Source of the DNA: Bdellovibrionales bacterium
GTDB taxonomy: Bacteria; Bdellovibrionota; Bdellovibrionia; Bdellovibrionales; JAGQZY01
Direction of reading: 5' to 3'
Assembly: GCA_020435205.1 (NCBI GenBank)
Contig: JAGQZY010000026.1
Span: 1-32,682, forward strand
DNA: 32,682 nt
The notes beneath the pieces were generated by a model. That model ran no database searches and was not told the DNA's origin. It worked only from the letters and a program-made list of their open reading frames with translations. Positions within the stretch are counted from its first letter, which is position 1, and the number at the start of each line of letters is the position of its first letter. Shown piece by piece: positions 21,337-28,712 of this stretch. Position numbers and translations under genes: made by a program.

Positions 21337-21412
21337 GGTCTCTTGGCGCAGTTGGTAGCGCGTCTCCTTGACATGGAGGAGGTCACTGGTTCGAGCCCAG
21401 TAGAGACCACCA
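21337..21412 (+). tRNA. tRNA-Val (anticodon GAC)
   Basis: The 76-base sequence folds as a complete cloverleaf: acceptor GGTCTCT paired with AGAGACC, D stem-loop GCGCAGTTGGTAGCGC, anticodon stem TCTCC/GGAGG around the loop TTGACAT with anticodon GAC, extra loop AGGTC, T stem ACTGG/CCAGT with TTCGAGC, discriminator A and encoded CCA (21410-21412). It reads GUC valine codons. TTTTT follows directly (21413-21417) without a separate hairpin. It stands between the barrel gene and the signalling block, and no duplicate of its 3' end was noticed downstream in the window. Confidence 0.97.
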
Positions 21413-21519: not shown

Positions 21520-21546
21520 ATGGGGTACTTAACGTCTTATGTTTAA
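21520..21546 (+). other. 8-codon leader frame overlapping the XRE start
   Basis: ATG at 21520 reads MGYLTSYV and stops at 21546, eight bases inside the XRE gene and in another frame. GAGGG (21511-21515) stands 4 bases before it, whereas the XRE ATG has no clear ribosome site, so translation of the regulator may be coupled to this frame. Confidence 0.3.
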
Positions 21547-21790
21547 TGAATTCTTACGAGAGCAACGCGAAGCCGCCGGTTTATCGCAAAAAGAGGTAGC
21601 AACAAAGTTGGGCTATTCATCGGCACAATTTATCTCTAACTGGGAGCGAGGAATCTCAGCCCCTCCAGTTAAAATACTACGTAAATTGGCAAAACTATAT
21701 AACGTAAAAGACGCGACTCTTTTAGATACCTATCTCACTTTTGTTGTTCAATCTATAGAGGACGAATTTTACTCACAACGAAAGGCGTGA
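21539..21790 (+). CDS. small XRE-family helix-turn-helix regulator
   Basis: 83 aa, nearly all of it an HTH_3/Cro-C1 domain: LREQREAAGLSQKEVA, LGYSSAQFISNWERG and ISAPPVKILRKLAKLY give the five-helix layout, and the C-terminal helix (TYLTFVVQSIEDEF) is a likely dimerisation element. A stop lies three codons upstream in frame, so ATG 21539 is the only possible start. It is followed after 4 bases by a gene for an unknown protein, in the arrangement of a regulator and its partner. An inverted repeat and a short leader frame stand upstream. It could regulate the divergent oxidase and acyltransferase genes next door (inference). Confidence 0.9.
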   Translation: MFNEFLREQREAAGLSQKEVATKLGYSSAQFISNWERGISAPPVKILRKLAKLYNVKDATLLDTYLTFVVQSIEDEFYSQRKA

Positions 21791-21794
21791 ATCT

Positions 21795-22547
21795 ATGCGT
21801 TACTCATTTTTTGATCCTCAGCGGGATTCTGGGCAAGTTTCTGATTTCTTAGTGGAGTTTAAGGAAGCCGCCGAGAGTTTAGTAGCCCTATTGAGAAAGT
21901 CTAATATCAAGATCGTCCCTTATTTCTCAGATTCTTTACCTTACTTTTCCAGTCTATCGAGAGAAGAGAAGGAGTCCATTTTAAGCAAAATTAATTTTTT
22001 AGTTAAAGTCTACTCATCATCAATCAGTCAAATTTATTCGAACCAGGCACTGGTATGGCGGGCCCTTAAAAAACTAAAAATGCAGATCCCCAACGAAATC
22101 ATGGGTAGCATTGATGACGATGATATTGTTGAAATTTATGACACTCAATTTATCCAACAATTTTGCAACCTACGTTTTTTTGAGATTTGTAGCTACTCCA
22201 TCGAGCAGCTAACCTGCCTACCTTGGACTCAACTGTGGGAACGTCGGCCAAAAGATATTGAAGATCTTTTTGAGATTGCCGCTGTTTTATCGGAAGAACA
22301 AAAACCTATTTTTTTAAGTAACCGCCATAAAGTCAAAGAAATGAGTTCACCATTCCAATACGAAATTGACTATGAATTAAAGGCTGCCGCCCCTGTGAAA
22401 AACATCCAAGGAGACTTGGTTGGGTTCATTGTTGTTGAAGGCAGCGAGGTCACGGGTGGAGCCCTCACTGCCGAGGAAGAAGAGGCCTATTTAAAGCGTT
22501 ACCTTTATCCCCTTGAGATGGGGGCAAATATTAGGTCTTTAAATTAA
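21795..22547 (+). CDS. unknown protein downstream of XRE regulator
   Basis: 250 aa, not recognised. No signal peptide or transmembrane segment. The first 130 residues are mostly helical and acidic-basic mixed (LVEFKEAAESLVALLRKS, SREEKESILSKINFLV), with IDDDDIVEIYDTQF near residue 110. The region from about 165 to 230 (ERRPKDIEDLFEIAAVL, YEIDYELKAAAPVKN, GDLVGFIVVEG) has the strand pattern of a PAS-like or sensor fold. The start ATG 21795 has AAAGG 8 bases upstream, 4 bases after the regulator stop. Its TAA overlaps by 4 bases the stop of the convergent diiron protein gene. A role as signal-sensing partner of the regulator is only a guess. Confidence 0.7.
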   Translation: MRYSFFDPQRDSGQVSDFLVEFKEAAESLVALLRKSNIKIVPYFSDSLPYFSSLSREEKESILSKINFLVKVYSSSISQIYSNQALVWRALKKLKMQIPNEIMGSIDDDDIVEIYDTQFIQQFCNLRFFEICSYSIEQLTCLPWTQLWERRPKDIEDLFEIAAVLSEEQKPIFLSNRHKVKEMSSPFQYEIDYELKAAAPVKNIQGDLVGFIVVEGSEVTGGALTAEEEEAYLKRYLYPLEMGANIRSLN

Positions 22548-23179
22548 GCAGCTAGATCTTTGCCAAAATAATAATTTTTAGACAAGCAAGAGTTCGTGAA
22601 AGCCATATAAAGATCTGTTGAAAGAATCATATTCTCCTCAATGAGTTTTAGGCTATCGGGATCTAGGTCTGTTACCATGGCGAGTGCTTTTTCCATATGG
22701 GAAACGTCTTCCTCGACATGCAAAGCGATAAATTTTGTGGGTAAATCCGCAGCGCTACTCTGCACTTTGTCGTGAATGGCTTTGCCGTGGGTAATAGCCA
22801 AGCCTTCCAAAGATAAAATCCATCCATAAACAGAGATTGGGTTTACATGCTGGATTTTATAAAATTGTGTGGCATAAAATGCAGTCACTTCAGAGCCTTG
22901 TGAGAAATTGCTAATGTTATATCCCATTTTTTGTAAATCAGCGTAGACCAATTTTTCATGGCCCTTTTCTTCGCGGGTGTGCTGAACAAATCTTTGGTGA
23001 TGTTTGTCTTGAGCGATTCCAAAATGTGCCGCTGCAAGTGTTAGAATGCGAGTTGATTGACAAATGTAATAGTAAGATTGCGCAAGCCAGTTCATATAAA
23101 AGTTTTTCTCATTCCAAGGTAAGTCTAAAATTTGCTCATACCGCTTCATTTCATTTTCAAAACTTTGGTATATATTCAT
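22544..23179 (-). CDS. heme-oxygenase-like diiron oxidase/PqqC-like protein
   Basis: 211 aa, all-helical, of the TENA/PqqC or heme-oxygenase-like diiron oxidase (HDO) fold. Likely iron ligands, by pattern: H67-x3-E71-x2-H74 (QHTREEKGHE), E125 with H131 (SLEGLAITH), and H154-x3-D158-x2-H161 (HVEEDVSHME). Members of this superfamily use two iron atoms and O2 to modify amino acids, fatty acids or N-hydroxylated compounds. Neither substrate nor an exact subfamily can be told. ATG 23179 has GGAGG 5 bases upstream. It diverges from the GNAT-type gene with a shared 109-base gap, and the stop overlaps that of the convergent unknown gene. Confidence 0.75.
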   Translation of the reverse strand: MNIYQSFENEMKRYEQILDLPWNEKNFYMNWLAQSYYYICQSTRILTLAAAHFGIAQDKHHQRFVQHTREEKGHEKLVYADLQKMGYNISNFSQGSEVTAFYATQFYKIQHVNPISVYGWILSLEGLAITHGKAIHDKVQSSAADLPTKFIALHVEEDVSHMEKALAMVTDLDPDSLKLIEENMILSTDLYMAFTNSCLSKNYYFGKDLAA

Positions 23180-23209
23180 CGTGGCCTCCGAGAGTTATCT
23201 TTACTTTTC

Positions 23210-23238
23210 TTGAAATAAATATATTTTGTTTATGTATT
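23210..23238 (+). promoter_or_regulatory. possible promoter of the GNAT gene
   Basis: TTGAAA (23210-23215), 17 bases, TGTATT (23233-23238). A moderate match in the gap shared by divergent genes, about 50 bases before the ATG at 23289. Confidence 0.35.
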
Positions 23239-23288
23239 GTGAGCTATGCAAATCTGATTTTTTTGGAAATACTGGATGGAGGTAGGGA

Positions 23289-23993
23289 ATGGTGAGTGAC
23301 TTAGGTCTTGTCGTGTTCGAAGGGCACAACTATTTTAATTCTGAAGCTCTCCCCATACGGTCGAATATCTATAATTTCTGGAAAGAACTTTGGATAAAAG
23401 TGAACCGGGAGCTCGGTCTTAATAATGAAGTTTTGAGCGATACCTTTAATAGGTACGATGTCATTATTGCTTTGGTAGAAAAATCGACAAAAAAAGTGAT
23501 CGGCACCTCTTTTCATTCTTTTTTTGATCTTCTCGATGTAGCCACTCAACAAATGAAGTATATCAAAACCTACTCGCCATCCTTTTTTGACGAACTAAAA
23601 AGCAAAGACATTCGATCGGTAATGTCCACTGAGTATTTAGCGATTAACCCTGAGTATCGTAAAGGGAAGAAAGGTATTCTCTATGCAGACATCATTGCCT
23701 CAATCGTGACCCACGTTTTTCAGATGTCCCCAGCAGATGCTGTAATCTGCGCTGCGCGCAATGACGTAGGCGTTAGTAAGCTGGCTAAGGTTCATGGCTA
23801 CCTCAGTCTTCTGGATGATAGTGACTTTAGAGGGTACCACTGCGATCAAATGGTATTATATCGACAAAACATAAGTAAAGGTCGGCCGCTCAATAAGGAA
23901 GATGTTTATAAAGAAATTTGGGCTAATCGTTCCCACTATTTTAACTATGTAACATTGCGTGATTTTATAGAAAATCCGAGGGTTGTGGCTTAG
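23289..23993 (+). CDS. GNAT-fold acyltransferase, possibly FeeM/LuxI-like
   Basis: 234 aa. The core matches the GNAT acyl-CoA/ACP acceptor layout: strand EYLAINPEYRKGKKGI (motif A, residues about 118-133) with the R-x-G-x-x-G acyl-donor loop, a following helix, then CAARNDVGVSKLAKVHGYLSL, which fits motif B. The preceding IALVEKSTKKVIGTSFHS pair of strands also fits. The longer N-terminal half and the helix after the loop recall N-acyl amino acid synthases (FeeM) and autoinducer synthases more than simple acetyltransferases; that subfamily call is uncertain. ATG 23289 has GGAGG 6 bases upstream. It diverges from the diiron protein gene, and its TAG overlaps by 4 bases the stop of the convergent PAS-DHp gene. 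Confidence 0.7.
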   Translation: MVSDLGLVVFEGHNYFNSEALPIRSNIYNFWKELWIKVNRELGLNNEVLSDTFNRYDVIIALVEKSTKKVIGTSFHSFFDLLDVATQQMKYIKTYSPSFFDELKSKDIRSVMSTEYLAINPEYRKGKKGILYADIIASIVTHVFQMSPADAVICAARNDVGVSKLAKVHGYLSLLDDSDFRGYHCDQMVLYRQNISKGRPLNKEDVYKEIWANRSHYFNYVTLRDFIENPRVVA

Positions 23994-24631: not shown

Positions 24632-24715
24632 GTCGCACTCCGCCACAAGTCGGGCTAATCAAGGTTTAAAAAGGGTTGACCTCATTGAACGAATATATAA
24701 ACATTTTTTGTTGAG

Positions 24716-25390
24716 ATGAGCAATCGAATTTTAATCGTAGATGACGATAAAGAAATCAGAAGCCAACTATCCGTCTACCTGATCGCTGCAGGCTATCAGG
24801 TAGACCTTGCAGAGGACTTGCCAAGCTTTTTCAATGCTCTGCAGGAAAGAATTCCAGGCATTGTTCTCCTCGACTTTAATTTAGGAGATACCAAGGGCAG
24901 TGTTGTTTTACAGGAAATTCGAAAACGGCCAGAGTGTGAAAAAATTCCTGTCATCGTTGTCACGGGTTTTGCCTCAGAGCCGGAACGAGTTGAATTATTG
25001 AAGATGGGTGCTGACGATATCGTTCAAAAACCATTTTCTTTGGAGGAACTACGAGCAAGAATATTAGCCAATTTGCGTAGAGCGAATAGCTATGCAAAAA
25101 TTGATGGCATTTTTACTTTTGGAAATATGCAATTGAACAAGAATAAACTTGAGTTTGTTACGGAAGGTCAAGCGATTCGACTGACCAACACAGAATTTAA
25201 GATTTTATTTGAACTGGTTTCAGCCAATGGATCTATGGTGAGCCGCAGGCGTTTGGTCGCCAATTCAATGGCCTGGGGAGTGGATCTTAGTCGGTCTCTG
25301 GATGTCCACATCAACTCTTTGCGGAAAAAATTATTAAACGCGGATACAACAATTAGGACTTTAAGAGGGAAGGGTTATTCCCTGGAGTAA
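24716..25390 (+). CDS. OmpR-family response regulator
   Basis: 224 aa. Receiver domain (1-118): acidic pair D9-D10 (LIVDDDKE), phosphoacceptor D53 (LLDFN), switch residue T in VTGF, and Lys in QKPFS. Winged-helix DNA-binding domain (about 128-224) with NTEFKILFELV, the recognition helix region RSLDVHINSLRKKL and the wing RGKGYSLE. ATG 24716 has no convincing ribosome site, and a TATATAA (24694-24700) lies only about 16 bases upstream, so its 5' leader may be very short. It is divergent from the PAS-DHp gene, its likely partner, and is followed by a strong terminator. Confidence 0.93.
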   Translation: MSNRILIVDDDKEIRSQLSVYLIAAGYQVDLAEDLPSFFNALQERIPGIVLLDFNLGDTKGSVVLQEIRKRPECEKIPVIVVTGFASEPERVELLKMGADDIVQKPFSLEELRARILANLRRANSYAKIDGIFTFGNMQLNKNKLEFVTEGQAIRLTNTEFKILFELVSANGSMVSRRRLVANSMAWGVDLSRSLDVHINSLRKKLLNADTTIRTLRGKGYSLE

Positions 25391-25465
25391 AAAATATTTA
25401 AGAAATTAAGCAATAATTAAGATTTGTTTCCGAACAGAGTGAAAAGGTTGATTTGAGTATACCTT

Positions 25466-25518
25466 AGGGGCTTCCCATTCAGTGGTCGGGCTGCTCGAGT
25501 GAGAAGCTCCCTTTTTTT
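25466..25518 (+). terminator. rho-independent terminator or attenuator
   Basis: GGGGCTTC (25467-25474) and GAAGCTCCC (25503-25511) pair with one bulge, extended inward, after one mismatch, by CATTC/GAGTG, around a loop of about 16 bases; TTTTTTT (25512-25518) follows. It lies 76 bases after the OmpR-type gene and only 14 bases before the next ATG, so it could also act as a switch in that gene's leader. Confidence 0.8.
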
Positions 25519-25532
25519 AAAGGTTTTTTAAT

Positions 25533-26405
25533 ATGTTAGTAAGCAAAGGAAGTCTAGGATTTAGAAAATGGATTCTGGTCGTTGAAGATGATGTCGAATT
25601 TGCGGAACTGGTAAAAACCTATTTAAACCTACACTTTGAAAATGAACTAAAAATTGTGACAGCCGTCGATGGAGCGGATGCCACTCGCAAGGTCAATTTT
25701 CAGGCCTTTGATTGCATTATCACGGACTTAGCTATGCCGAACAAAGAAGGGCACGCCTTTATATCCTATGTAAGGCGAAGTAATCTAAACGCGGAGTGCC
25801 CCGTGATCATAATTTCTGGTTTACCTCGAGACCCGCAAGCTGACCATGAGCATAGTTTTACATACAGGTTGGATAAGCCATTCAATCAGAATGAAATCAT
25901 CCCTTTAGTTGAGTCCCAGATCAAACTTGGTAAAGCCAACAATAGAATTGCCGCTGATTTAGTTAACAATATTTTGCAATCCATTATTGATTTTTCAAGC
26001 AGTGTGATTGGTGTTGAGTTGGCAACCGGAGGTGCTAGCCTCAAGAAAAAAAGAGAAGCTATTGATTTTGACCAAGTGGGCAAGGTCACAATATCAATAA
26101 CGGGATCAAAAAATCTAACAGTATATATTGGATTTCCAAGAGTCTTTTTAGAAAAACTAGCCGAGAAGTTTGAAATTGAGTTCAAGCCAGAAAATATCGC
26201 AATGGCAGCTTGTCGAGTCTTAATTAAGCGAATGATCAAAAGGCTTAATATTGATAGCCAGTTTTCTGGAGCCCAAATATGGGTTTTATCTGGCAAAGAG
26301 GAAAATGATCTCTTTATGGCCAAGGGGATACAAATGCCCTTAAAGAGTGAAGACGGAATAGAGCTCGCAGTGATTCTGCCATCAGATACGAATAATAAGC
26401 ATTGA
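25533..26405 (+). CDS. response regulator with CheX-like C-terminal domain
   Basis: 290 aa. The receiver domain (about 12-130) has the acidic pocket (LVVEDDVE), phosphoacceptor D65 (IITDLAMP) and K in LDKPFN. The C-terminal half (LVNNILQSIIDFSSSVIGVELA, GKVTISITGSKNLTVYIGFP, MAACRVLIKRMIKRL) has the strand-helix pattern of CheX/CheC-type chemotaxis phosphatases. The catalytic E-x-x-N usual in that family is not visible at the expected helices, so phosphatase activity is uncertain. ATG 25533 has AAAGG 9 bases upstream, right after the terminator. It is 11 bases from the next gene, a lone receiver. Confidence 0.75.
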   Translation: MLVSKGSLGFRKWILVVEDDVEFAELVKTYLNLHFENELKIVTAVDGADATRKVNFQAFDCIITDLAMPNKEGHAFISYVRRSNLNAECPVIIISGLPRDPQADHEHSFTYRLDKPFNQNEIIPLVESQIKLGKANNRIAADLVNNILQSIIDFSSSVIGVELATGGASLKKKREAIDFDQVGKVTISITGSKNLTVYIGFPRVFLEKLAEKFEIEFKPENIAMAACRVLIKRMIKRLNIDSQFSGAQIWVLSGKEENDLFMAKGIQMPLKSEDGIELAVILPSDTNNKH

Positions 26406-26416
26406 GGAGTTTTAGA

Positions 26417-26773
26417 GTGGAAAAGTCAGAAATTTTAATTGTGGATGATGAAAAGGATCTTGCTGATTCGCTTTCGTTTTATCTTCATTTGAATGGCTAT
26501 TCGCCAAGCATTGCTCTTTCTGCTGCAGAGGCGATCCACTTAGTGGATAAGAATACCAAACTCGTCATCTCCGACATTTGTATGCCTGGGGCCAATGGGA
26601 TTGATATGCTCAAAAAAATGGCAGAAAAATTGGGCTATGAACCTAACACAATATTTTTATCGGGATTTACCCAGGAGTCTCATAAGAAACTAGGGGAGGT
26701 CAATCCTCTTGAGGTTCTAAGCAAACCTGTCGATCTGCCGAAACTTCTCAATTATCTGCGCCTATATGTCTAG
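26417..26773 (+). CDS. single-domain response regulator (REC)
   Basis: 118 aa consisting only of a receiver domain: acidic pair D10-D11 (ILIVDDEKD), phosphoacceptor D53 (VISDICMP), Ser in FLSGF in place of the switch Thr, and Lys in SKPVD. The GTG start at 26417 is chosen because AGGAG lies 7 bases upstream; a TTG at 26402 would add five residues without support. Its stop overlaps by 8 bases the start of the hybrid kinase gene. Lone receivers commonly pass phosphate between kinases and outputs or act by protein contact, and this one is probably a partner of the hybrid kinase. Confidence 0.9.
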   Translation: MEKSEILIVDDEKDLADSLSFYLHLNGYSPSIALSAAEAIHLVDKNTKLVISDICMPGANGIDMLKKMAEKLGYEPNTIFLSGFTQESHKKLGEVNPLEVLSKPVDLPKLLNYLRLYV

Positions 26774-28712
26774 TGCAAAAAAAATTCCTCTCAATTCAGC
26801 TCAAAATCTACAACATTGGAAAGCTGACAAAAATGAAGGCCTTAATGAAAAAGAGTTGCGTGCTCACTACGAGCGAGCGCTCGAAGGCGCTTGTTTGGGA
26901 ATGTGGGATTGGAATCCCGTCGATAACTCCGTGCGGTTTGATCGAAGATGGTGTGAAATGATTGGTTTGGATTTTGAGTCCACGCCAATGGAATTAAAAA
27001 CTTGGGAAGACCGAGTTCATCCTGAAGATCTTAAGAAATGTTATGATGACATCAAAGCTTATCTTAATGGGTTAACCCCTTTTTATGAGAATATTCACAG
27101 GATGAAGCATGCTAATGGGCATTGGGTCTATATATTGGATCGAGGGAAAATAGCAGAAAGAGCAGAGGATGGGAGTCCAGTACGTTTTACCGGCACGCAC
27201 TTTGATATTAGTATTTTTGAAAAAAATAGAAAAATGCTGTCTGTGCTTTTTGACAACAGTCCCATGGGGTTTTTATTCTGCGACAAGAATGGACTCATTC
27301 GGCAGACCAATAAAGCTTTTCTCTCATTTTTTGAAAACAATGCTCTACCCACAAATACCTGTTTGGTGGAGGATATCGTTTTTAATTGGGATCGAAGCCC
27401 TTTAAAACTCAATAACAGTTCCCTGAAGAACTCTGATTGCACCCATTTCGAAGGATTTATTAAAGACAATCAGGGAGTGGAAATATCAGTCAACGTTACT
27501 TTGTTTGGGGTTGACGAATTCTTAGAGGATGGAGGCTATTGGCTAATTGTCGAAGACCAAACAGAAAGTTTACGAATTGCCAGTGCTCTTAAAAAACAGC
27601 AGGAGATCGCCTTACACTCAGCGAGACTGGCTTCCATCGGAGAGTTGGCGGCAGGGGTTGGTCATGAGATCAACAATCCACTGATGATTATTTTTAACGC
27701 CATAGAGTCTGTGAACCCAAGTGTTCGTGAAGATCCAAGCATGAGCCTTTTGTGTGAAAAAGTCGAGGCGGCATCGGTTCGTATTAAAAATATCGTGGAG
27801 GGTTTAAGGAGTTTTGGTCGGCTCAATGACAGCAATAATGAATGTATAGACTTGTATGGTTTGATTCGGAAGACGATTTCTATGTTGCGCGAAATTTTCG
27901 AAAAAGAGGGTGTTTCTATAAGCGCAGACCTTGTAGCAGATATGTATATTGAAGGATCTGCACAGCAGATACAACAGGTTCTTATTAACCTGCTGACCAA
28001 TGCTAGGGATGCCTGCAGGGAGGTTGCAGAACCCAATATTCATATCACCTTAAAAAGAAGGAATAACTGTGCATGGCTAAAAATATCTGACAATGGCAAA
28101 GGGATTCCTCAGGAGATTCAAAACCGTGTCTTCGATGCTTTTTTTACCACTAAAGATGTGAATGAAGGCACGGGAATTGGGCTTTCTATAGTTCATTCGA
28201 TCGTTGAAAGTCATGGAGGTAAGATCTCTTTTCGTAGTCGGCCAGGTAAAAAAACAACATTCCAGCTGCTTTTCCCACTCACTGAAATGGCTTGCTCCGT
28301 TGCTGAAAAAGTGGCTTGCAAGAAAAATGTCCATTGCCGACCTTTGCAGATTCTGTTGGTTGATGACGAACCGGATATTGGAGAATTGCTGGCCAACTTA
28401 ATTGAAAGCCTAGGGCATACCGTGACCACAGCCACTAACGCAAAAATGGCCCTTTCCATCCTCAAGGAAATAGAGGTTGATGTAGTGTTGTCGGATTTAA
28501 AAATGCCCCATATGAATGGTAATGAGTTTTTTCAAGAAATTCGAAAGCGGTTCCCTCAAAACAAAGCCAAGCTTTTTCTAATGACCGGGGGAATCTCAAT
28601 AGAGCCCGAATTTAAGCGGGAAGGTTCGGCGGCATCCACCTGTGATGACTACCTTTTTAAACCCTTTAAAAAGGCTCAGCTCCAGGAGCTTCTTTGCAGA
28701 TACTTTTCCTGA
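26766..28712 (+). CDS. PAS-PAS hybrid histidine kinase
   Basis: 648 aa, no transmembrane segment, so a cytoplasmic sensor. Order: PAS of the PAS_3 kind (about 33-155, GMWDWNPVDNSVRFDRR, RVHPEDL, FTGTHFDI), second PAS (about 157-275), DHp with H300 (AGVGHEINNPLMI), HATPase with N box (INLLTNARDAC), G1 (SDNGKGIP), F box (FFTTKD) and G2 (GTGIGLSIVHS), and a C-terminal receiver with phosphoacceptor D577 (VLSDLKMP) and Lys in FKPFK. Every catalytic element is intact. ATG 26766 overlaps the lone receiver by 8 bases. In this region it is the only protein with a working ATPase, so it is a candidate source of phosphate for the four other signalling proteins. Confidence 0.95.
   Translation: MSSAKKIPLNSAQNLQHWKADKNEGLNEKELRAHYERALEGACLGMWDWNPVDNSVRFDRRWCEMIGLDFESTPMELKTWEDRVHPEDLKKCYDDIKAYLNGLTPFYENIHRMKHANGHWVYILDRGKIAERAEDGSPVRFTGTHFDISIFEKNRKMLSVLFDNSPMGFLFCDKNGLIRQTNKAFLSFFENNALPTNTCLVEDIVFNWDRSPLKLNNSSLKNSDCTHFEGFIKDNQGVEISVNVTLFGVDEFLEDGGYWLIVEDQTESLRIASALKKQQEIALHSARLASIGELAAGVGHEINNPLMIIFNAIESVNPSVREDPSMSLLCEKVEAASVRIKNIVEGLRSFGRLNDSNNECIDLYGLIRKTISMLREIFEKEGVSISADLVADMYIEGSAQQIQQVLINLLTNARDACREVAEPNIHITLKRRNNCAWLKISDNGKGIPQEIQNRVFDAFFTTKDVNEGTGIGLSIVHSIVESHGGKISFRSRPGKKTTFQLLFPLTEMACSVAEKVACKKNVHCRPLQILLVDDEPDIGELLANLIESLGHTVTTATNAKMALSILKEIEVDVVLSDLKMPHMNGNEFFQEIRKRFPQNKAKLFLMTGGISIEPEFKREGSAASTCDDYLFKPFKKAQLQELLCRYFS

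Follow-up and report, generated by a model that had tools for sequence, protein, structure and literature searches.

In the LuxI/LuxR systems of AHL quorum sensing, a synthase (BjaI, RpaI and LasI are examples; PF00765) is encoded next to a small-molecule sensor, the pair diverges fast and duplicates together, and orphan sensors, the LuxR 'solos', are found. A related fold is that of FeeM-type N-acyl amino acid synthases, among them NasY of the stieleriacine/kyonggic acid clusters. In these clusters the synthase is accompanied by an O2-dependent desaturating enzyme of the nitroreductase family (PMC12479983). Oxidative enzymes of another kind make up the heme-oxygenase-like diiron oxidase (HDO) superfamily (UndA, BesC, CADD, MboA and SznF), which has PF14518 and a set of three histidine and three carboxylate ligands (3H/3C) in common; in MboA, the mangotoxin oxidase, these are E86, H89, E143, H172, D176 and H181 (PMC13185094). 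Pairing of an HDO with a LuxI/FeeM-like acyltransferase, as occurs in the locus described here, is not mentioned in an HDO review of 2026 (PMC13108848).

The DNA analysed, hereafter the window, is a stretch of 32,682 nucleotides from a Bdellovibrionales bacterium. Two open reading frames, H and G, had been reported as a divergent pair sharing a gap of 109 bases; both are present at those positions, and that distance separates their start codons. Together they form half of a four-gene cassette, X-S-H-G, that is widespread in the Bdellovibrio phylum (Bdellovibrionota) and whose anatomy is well supported:

21539..21790, + strand: X, an 83-aa XRE/Cro-type helix-turn-helix regulator (PF01381 HTH_3, 2.7e-16)
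21795..22547, + strand: S, a 250-aa protein of a new family with N-terminal helices and a PAS domain, the proposed product sensor
22544..23179, - strand: H, a 211-aa HDO (PF14518)
23180..23288: an intergenic region of 109 bases, from which H and G are read in opposite directions
23289..23993, + strand: G, a 234-aa protein, a LuxI/FeeM-like N-acyltransferase as judged from an AlphaFold model and Foldseek

X and S form a two-gene operon, X first, with a 4-base gap; H and S converge and overlap by 4 bases. A GGAGG-type ribosome site can be read directly before the starts of both H and G. The cassette resembles LuxI/LuxR in the fold of the synthase and in having a synthase next to a sensor, in this case a putative one, with fast divergence, co-duplication and orphan sensors. 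It differs in lacking an Autoind_synth match, in having a PAS-only sensor and a separate XRE protein instead of a LuxR fusion, and in including an oxidative enzyme. From FeeM/NasY clusters, whose synthases share the fold of G, it is set apart by the PAS/XRE pair and by an oxidative partner that is a diiron HDO, a membrane desaturase or a FAD oxidase. The cassette may be likened to LuxI/LuxR or FeeM systems, yet by its sequences it is a member of neither.

H matched PF14518 (Haem_oxygenas_2) at 1e-9, above the curated cut-off. A family profile of 46 relatives matched 3dde (1.7e-18), an unassigned structure of the HDO fold, and MboA (1.1e-7), with weak matches to CADD, UndA and BesC. Six residues that the original prediction had proposed as iron ligands (E71, H74, E125, H154, D158 and H161) are invariant in all 46 homologues. 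They constitute a 3H/3C set, and their order, E-x2-H / E / H-x3-D-xn-H, is that of the MboA ligands (PMC13185094). H67, also proposed, is present in 42 of the 46 and lies outside the usual six ligands; D81 and G119 are likewise invariant. The profile match and the ligand set bear out the assignment of 22544-23179 as an HDO-type enzyme: by sequence and ligands H is a bona fide HDO, predicted to bind a diiron centre and to activate O2. The window genome encodes another, distant HDO (G000:C144:5054-5770; L110) that has no adjoining acyltransferase, and a distant Corallococcus HDO match (L223) has neither G nor S nearby.

The AlphaFold2 model of G, computed with 53 relatives in the alignment, has a pLDDT of 90.9. 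Among its best Foldseek matches are BjaI (3.7e-6), RpaI, LasI, FeeM (2g0b, 1.1e-5) and EsaI; the TM score is about 0.5-0.6 for the top matches, and the comparison with LuxI gives a TM of about 0.57 at 9% identity. Ordinary GNATs follow close behind in the same search (GCN5, for example, at an E of about 1e-5), so the substrate of G is not fixed by the fold alone. None of the 53 members matched Autoind_synth (PF00765) and none was hit above cut-off by a Pfam or NCBIfam acyltransferase model; in the PDB, neither G nor S has a credible sequence relative. The fold is that of a GNAT according to the model and Foldseek, but the earlier description of GNAT motifs A and B was too strong a claim for the sequence, motif A (the R/Q-x-x-G-x-G/A CoA loop) occurring anywhere in 6 of 53 members and correctly placed in one or two. 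In the LuxI/FeeM branch this classical loop motif is expected to be missing. An arginine, R124, is conserved in 49 of the 53 members. With AHL synthases and FeeM as the nearest structures, the proposed LuxI/FeeM resemblance stands, and G is probably a LuxI/FeeM-like N-acyltransferase. With canonical LuxI models, neither the window genome nor the same-order genomes listed gave a match; 7 of 144 genomes of the phylum did, mostly marginally. Bdellovibrio-like genomes carry a second G-family gene without H or S (L111, L112, L113, L114, L248 and L250).

Among 99 relatives, H was found in about 60-65% of the genomes and G likewise. G and H are immediate neighbours in 63 pairs, far beyond chance, when the pair is looked for in these first 99 genomes. 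H copies that were single by BLAST proved to have an adjoining G once profiles were used, and a search with a Bdellovibrio-like subset of HDOs gave 12 loci, 11 of them with G; a search of genome contigs with the window HDO as the query returned no match. On a plasmid of Bdellovibrio sp. HM001 (pBdHM1; L273, AP029175.1 158607-160293), a short G, H and S are present, each annotated 'hypothetical protein'. B. bacteriovorus strain kdesi also has a copy, arranged S-G-H (L212). In 55 of the 63 pairs G precedes H on one strand; H precedes G in 4, 3 are divergent and 1 is convergent. The shared divergent promoter that had been suggested as the basis of common control is not supported: the divergent layout of the window is the exception, no consensus promoter and no conserved operator were found in the gap at 23180-23288, a promoter scan of it fell below the shuffled expectation, and no conserved inverted repeat lies upstream of G. 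In genome G048, G and H are joined in a single 455-aa ORF (L069:6474-7841, - strand). The two may be genuinely fused, or a stop codon may have been lost, which is possible since the genome looks like a draft assembly.

Further evidence that G and H act together, besides this ORF and adjacency in dozens of genomes, comes from loci in which the HDO is replaced. H is absent from eight loci that carry both G and S, and in six of these (L116, L117, L118, L121, L230 and L246; two carry two desaturase genes) a PF00487 fatty-acid desaturase lies within a few genes of G. These six genomes have only 2-7 desaturase genes each, so the placement beside G is not accidental. The two remaining genomes, G196 and G009, contain zero desaturases; the former has a FAD-binding oxidoreductase between S and G (L242), and in the latter a radical-SAM gene adjoins G. 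In genome G230, a G-like acyltransferase and a FAD-binding (PF01565) oxidoreductase form one 770-aa ORF (L224:6565-8877, - strand). H and a desaturase also occur in the same locus (L062, L064, L096, L234 and L239). On the simplest reading, HDO, desaturase, FAD oxidase and radical-SAM enzyme all oxidise either the product of G or the acyl group on which G draws.

When the neighbours around 60 loci were clustered, S and X emerged as two more families that recur. In 68 of 95 G loci, S lies no more than three genes away from G, a count in which loci were picked for G or H rather than S and, with some close relatives included, are not independent. S and H usually converge (in 35 of the 40 cases in which they are direct neighbours), often with an overlap of a few bases. 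The AlphaFold model of S (pLDDT 91.5) shows helices at the N-terminus and, after them, a PAS domain, and its best Foldseek matches are PAS domains; beyond weak PAS matches it has no Pfam family, and no kinase or DNA-binding domain was found in it. PAS domains sense redox, O2, haem and light. XRE proteins related to X lie beside S in many loci, in either order, and orphan X-S pairs exist as well. Only some 40% of the examined loci have X in the vicinity of G, and H is present without S or X in 16 of 95 loci. Bdellovibrio-like genomes have up to seven copies of S, several of them orphan and some accompanied by X but by no synthase; the orphan copies, which include L261-L265 (genome G031), L264 and L272, are comparable to LuxR solos. 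A 353-aa S-family protein (L266:2240-3301, + strand) has about 100 extra N-terminal residues with no Pfam match and may combine the sensor with a regulator.

The cassette changes fast and appears to move as a whole. Between the window genome and a genus-mate, GuaB is 84% identical (about 72% across the order), H is 32% identical, and G is missed by direct search; the best matches of H come from other families of the order. Genome G010 has three cassettes. Two of them group as sisters in each of the trees for G, H and S, though one has H inverted; the nearest genome of the third is the same, or nearly so, across the three trees. G and H distances correlate (Mantel r 0.40, p 0.002, shared species history not removed); the G-S and H-S correlations are weaker. 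Fast change and whole-cassette exchange fit private signals, and antagonistic chemistry would look similar. A tRNA-Val gene at window 21337-21412, immediately upstream of the X-S operon, is a possible insertion site for an exchangeable cassette.

Our main reading, to which we give a probability of roughly 0.5, is that X-S-H-G is a self-contained cassette that makes and senses an oxidised N-acyl molecule, with signalling as its putative role. As the fold suggests, G would acylate a small amine, for instance an amino acid, with acyl-ACP or acyl-CoA as the donor of the fatty acyl group. H would use O2 to oxidise the N-acyl product or its acyl chain by desaturation, hydroxylation, acetylene formation or decarboxylation, a role inferred from its HDO family and from the desaturases and FAD oxidases that take its place in other loci. 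The finished molecule would be bound by S, a PAS-fold protein lacking an output domain of its own, and S would in turn control the co-encoded XRE repressor X. Apart from the additional tailoring reaction, the cassette would operate as LuxI and LuxR do, and private signals would account for its rapid divergence. The broader proposal, somewhat short of even odds and tentative, is that Bdellovibrionota, including predatory Bdellovibrio, possess an unnamed family of chemical-signalling cassettes, in which a LuxI/FeeM-like synthase is combined with an exchangeable oxidative enzyme (diiron HDO, fatty-acid desaturase or FAD oxidase) that renders the signal private and with a receptor of PAS fold whose output runs through an XRE repressor, the same genomes having additional orphan receptors. 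Counting against a signal cassette are the lone second G in Bdellovibrio-like genomes, the occurrence of G-H without S nearby in some genomes, the variety of cues that PAS domains sense, the missing DNA-binding domain of S, the limited share of loci with X near G, and the likeness of G to LuxI in fold only, with ordinary GNATs close behind; nor was a transporter or a conserved operator found. If the proposal is true, predatory bacteria have acyl signals of their own, a private language by which attack, growth or release could be coordinated. Making and sensing of a signal by the cassette would also offer a testable class of natural substrate for HDO oxidases, whose substrates are mostly unknown, and G and S represent two protein families for which no model was found.

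The main rival to signalling is a small natural-product or lipid cassette. Here the product of G and H would be an N-acyl amino acid or aminolipid in oxidised form that serves as a membrane lipid, a surfactant, an antibiotic or a metal binder; S/X would be a pathway regulator that senses redox state, O2, iron or a precursor. The enzyme evidence (the H ligands, the H profile and the fold of G) suits this reading equally, and PAS domains are often redox or O2 sensors. Known HDOs mainly serve natural-product pathways (PMC13108848), and FeeM-type enzymes co-occur with oxidative tailoring in N-acyl tyrosine clusters (PMC12479983). Against it, the cassette has just two enzymes and lacks an exporter or carrier protein; the extreme rate of divergence, the duplication together with the sensor and the spread of X-S orphans in the manner of receptor solos are more typical of signalling. 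We regard this rival as a real possibility, if a minority one.

The remaining alternatives carry little weight. It had been suggested that the pair makes a signal for the nearby two-component block (24646-28712), which would leave S and X as unrelated neighbours. The two genes of the block nearest to the cassette, a response regulator and a HisKA-like protein, do adjoin it in the genus-mate (genome G001, L107), but among the fetched loci no other genome conserves them there, and X and S recur instead, S with the frequency given above. The actual partner of G-H is the X-S pair; the block is at most a local recruit, and the idea that it receives the acyl product is highly unlikely. A role in stress or defence, be it as a GNAT toxin paired with an XRE antitoxin or as an anti-phage system, is about as improbable. 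In its favour, X is similar to repressors of the phage type and to the HTH components of defence systems, and a plasmid copy of the cassette exists, but G, H and S have no PADLOC match, X pairs with S rather than with G, and toxin-antitoxin pairs have no place for diiron oxidases or desaturases. A phage origin of the cassette was also considered, and no PHROG match was found. That H and G belong to unrelated pathways and are adjacent by accident is refuted for practical purposes: lone copies of either exist, but the two are neighbours in divergent genomes in every orientation, can be joined in one ORF and are duplicated jointly.

Our literature search found no description of the G-H pair or of a G-H-S cassette, though subscription journals lay outside the search and novelty is unproven; no LuxI/LuxR-type system in Bdellovibrio was found either, nor any paper on the operon described next. 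Plasmids of gammaproteobacteria (Citrobacter, Vibrio, Pantoea, Pseudoalteromonas and Salinivibrio) carry a conserved operon in the order 'thermostable hemolysin', AMP-binding enzyme, HDO and SDR (L276, L278, L279, L280 and L281), mostly with a cytochrome b561-type gene upstream. Its HDO is clearly homologous to H (hhalign 99.6%). The operon differs from the cassette in having the AMP-binding and SDR enzymes and in lacking S and X. The 'thermostable hemolysin' (PF12261), an acyltransferase-like protein, was considered as a homologue of G and showed no profile similarity to it; despite its name, this protein may be a biosynthetic enzyme rather than a hemolysin.
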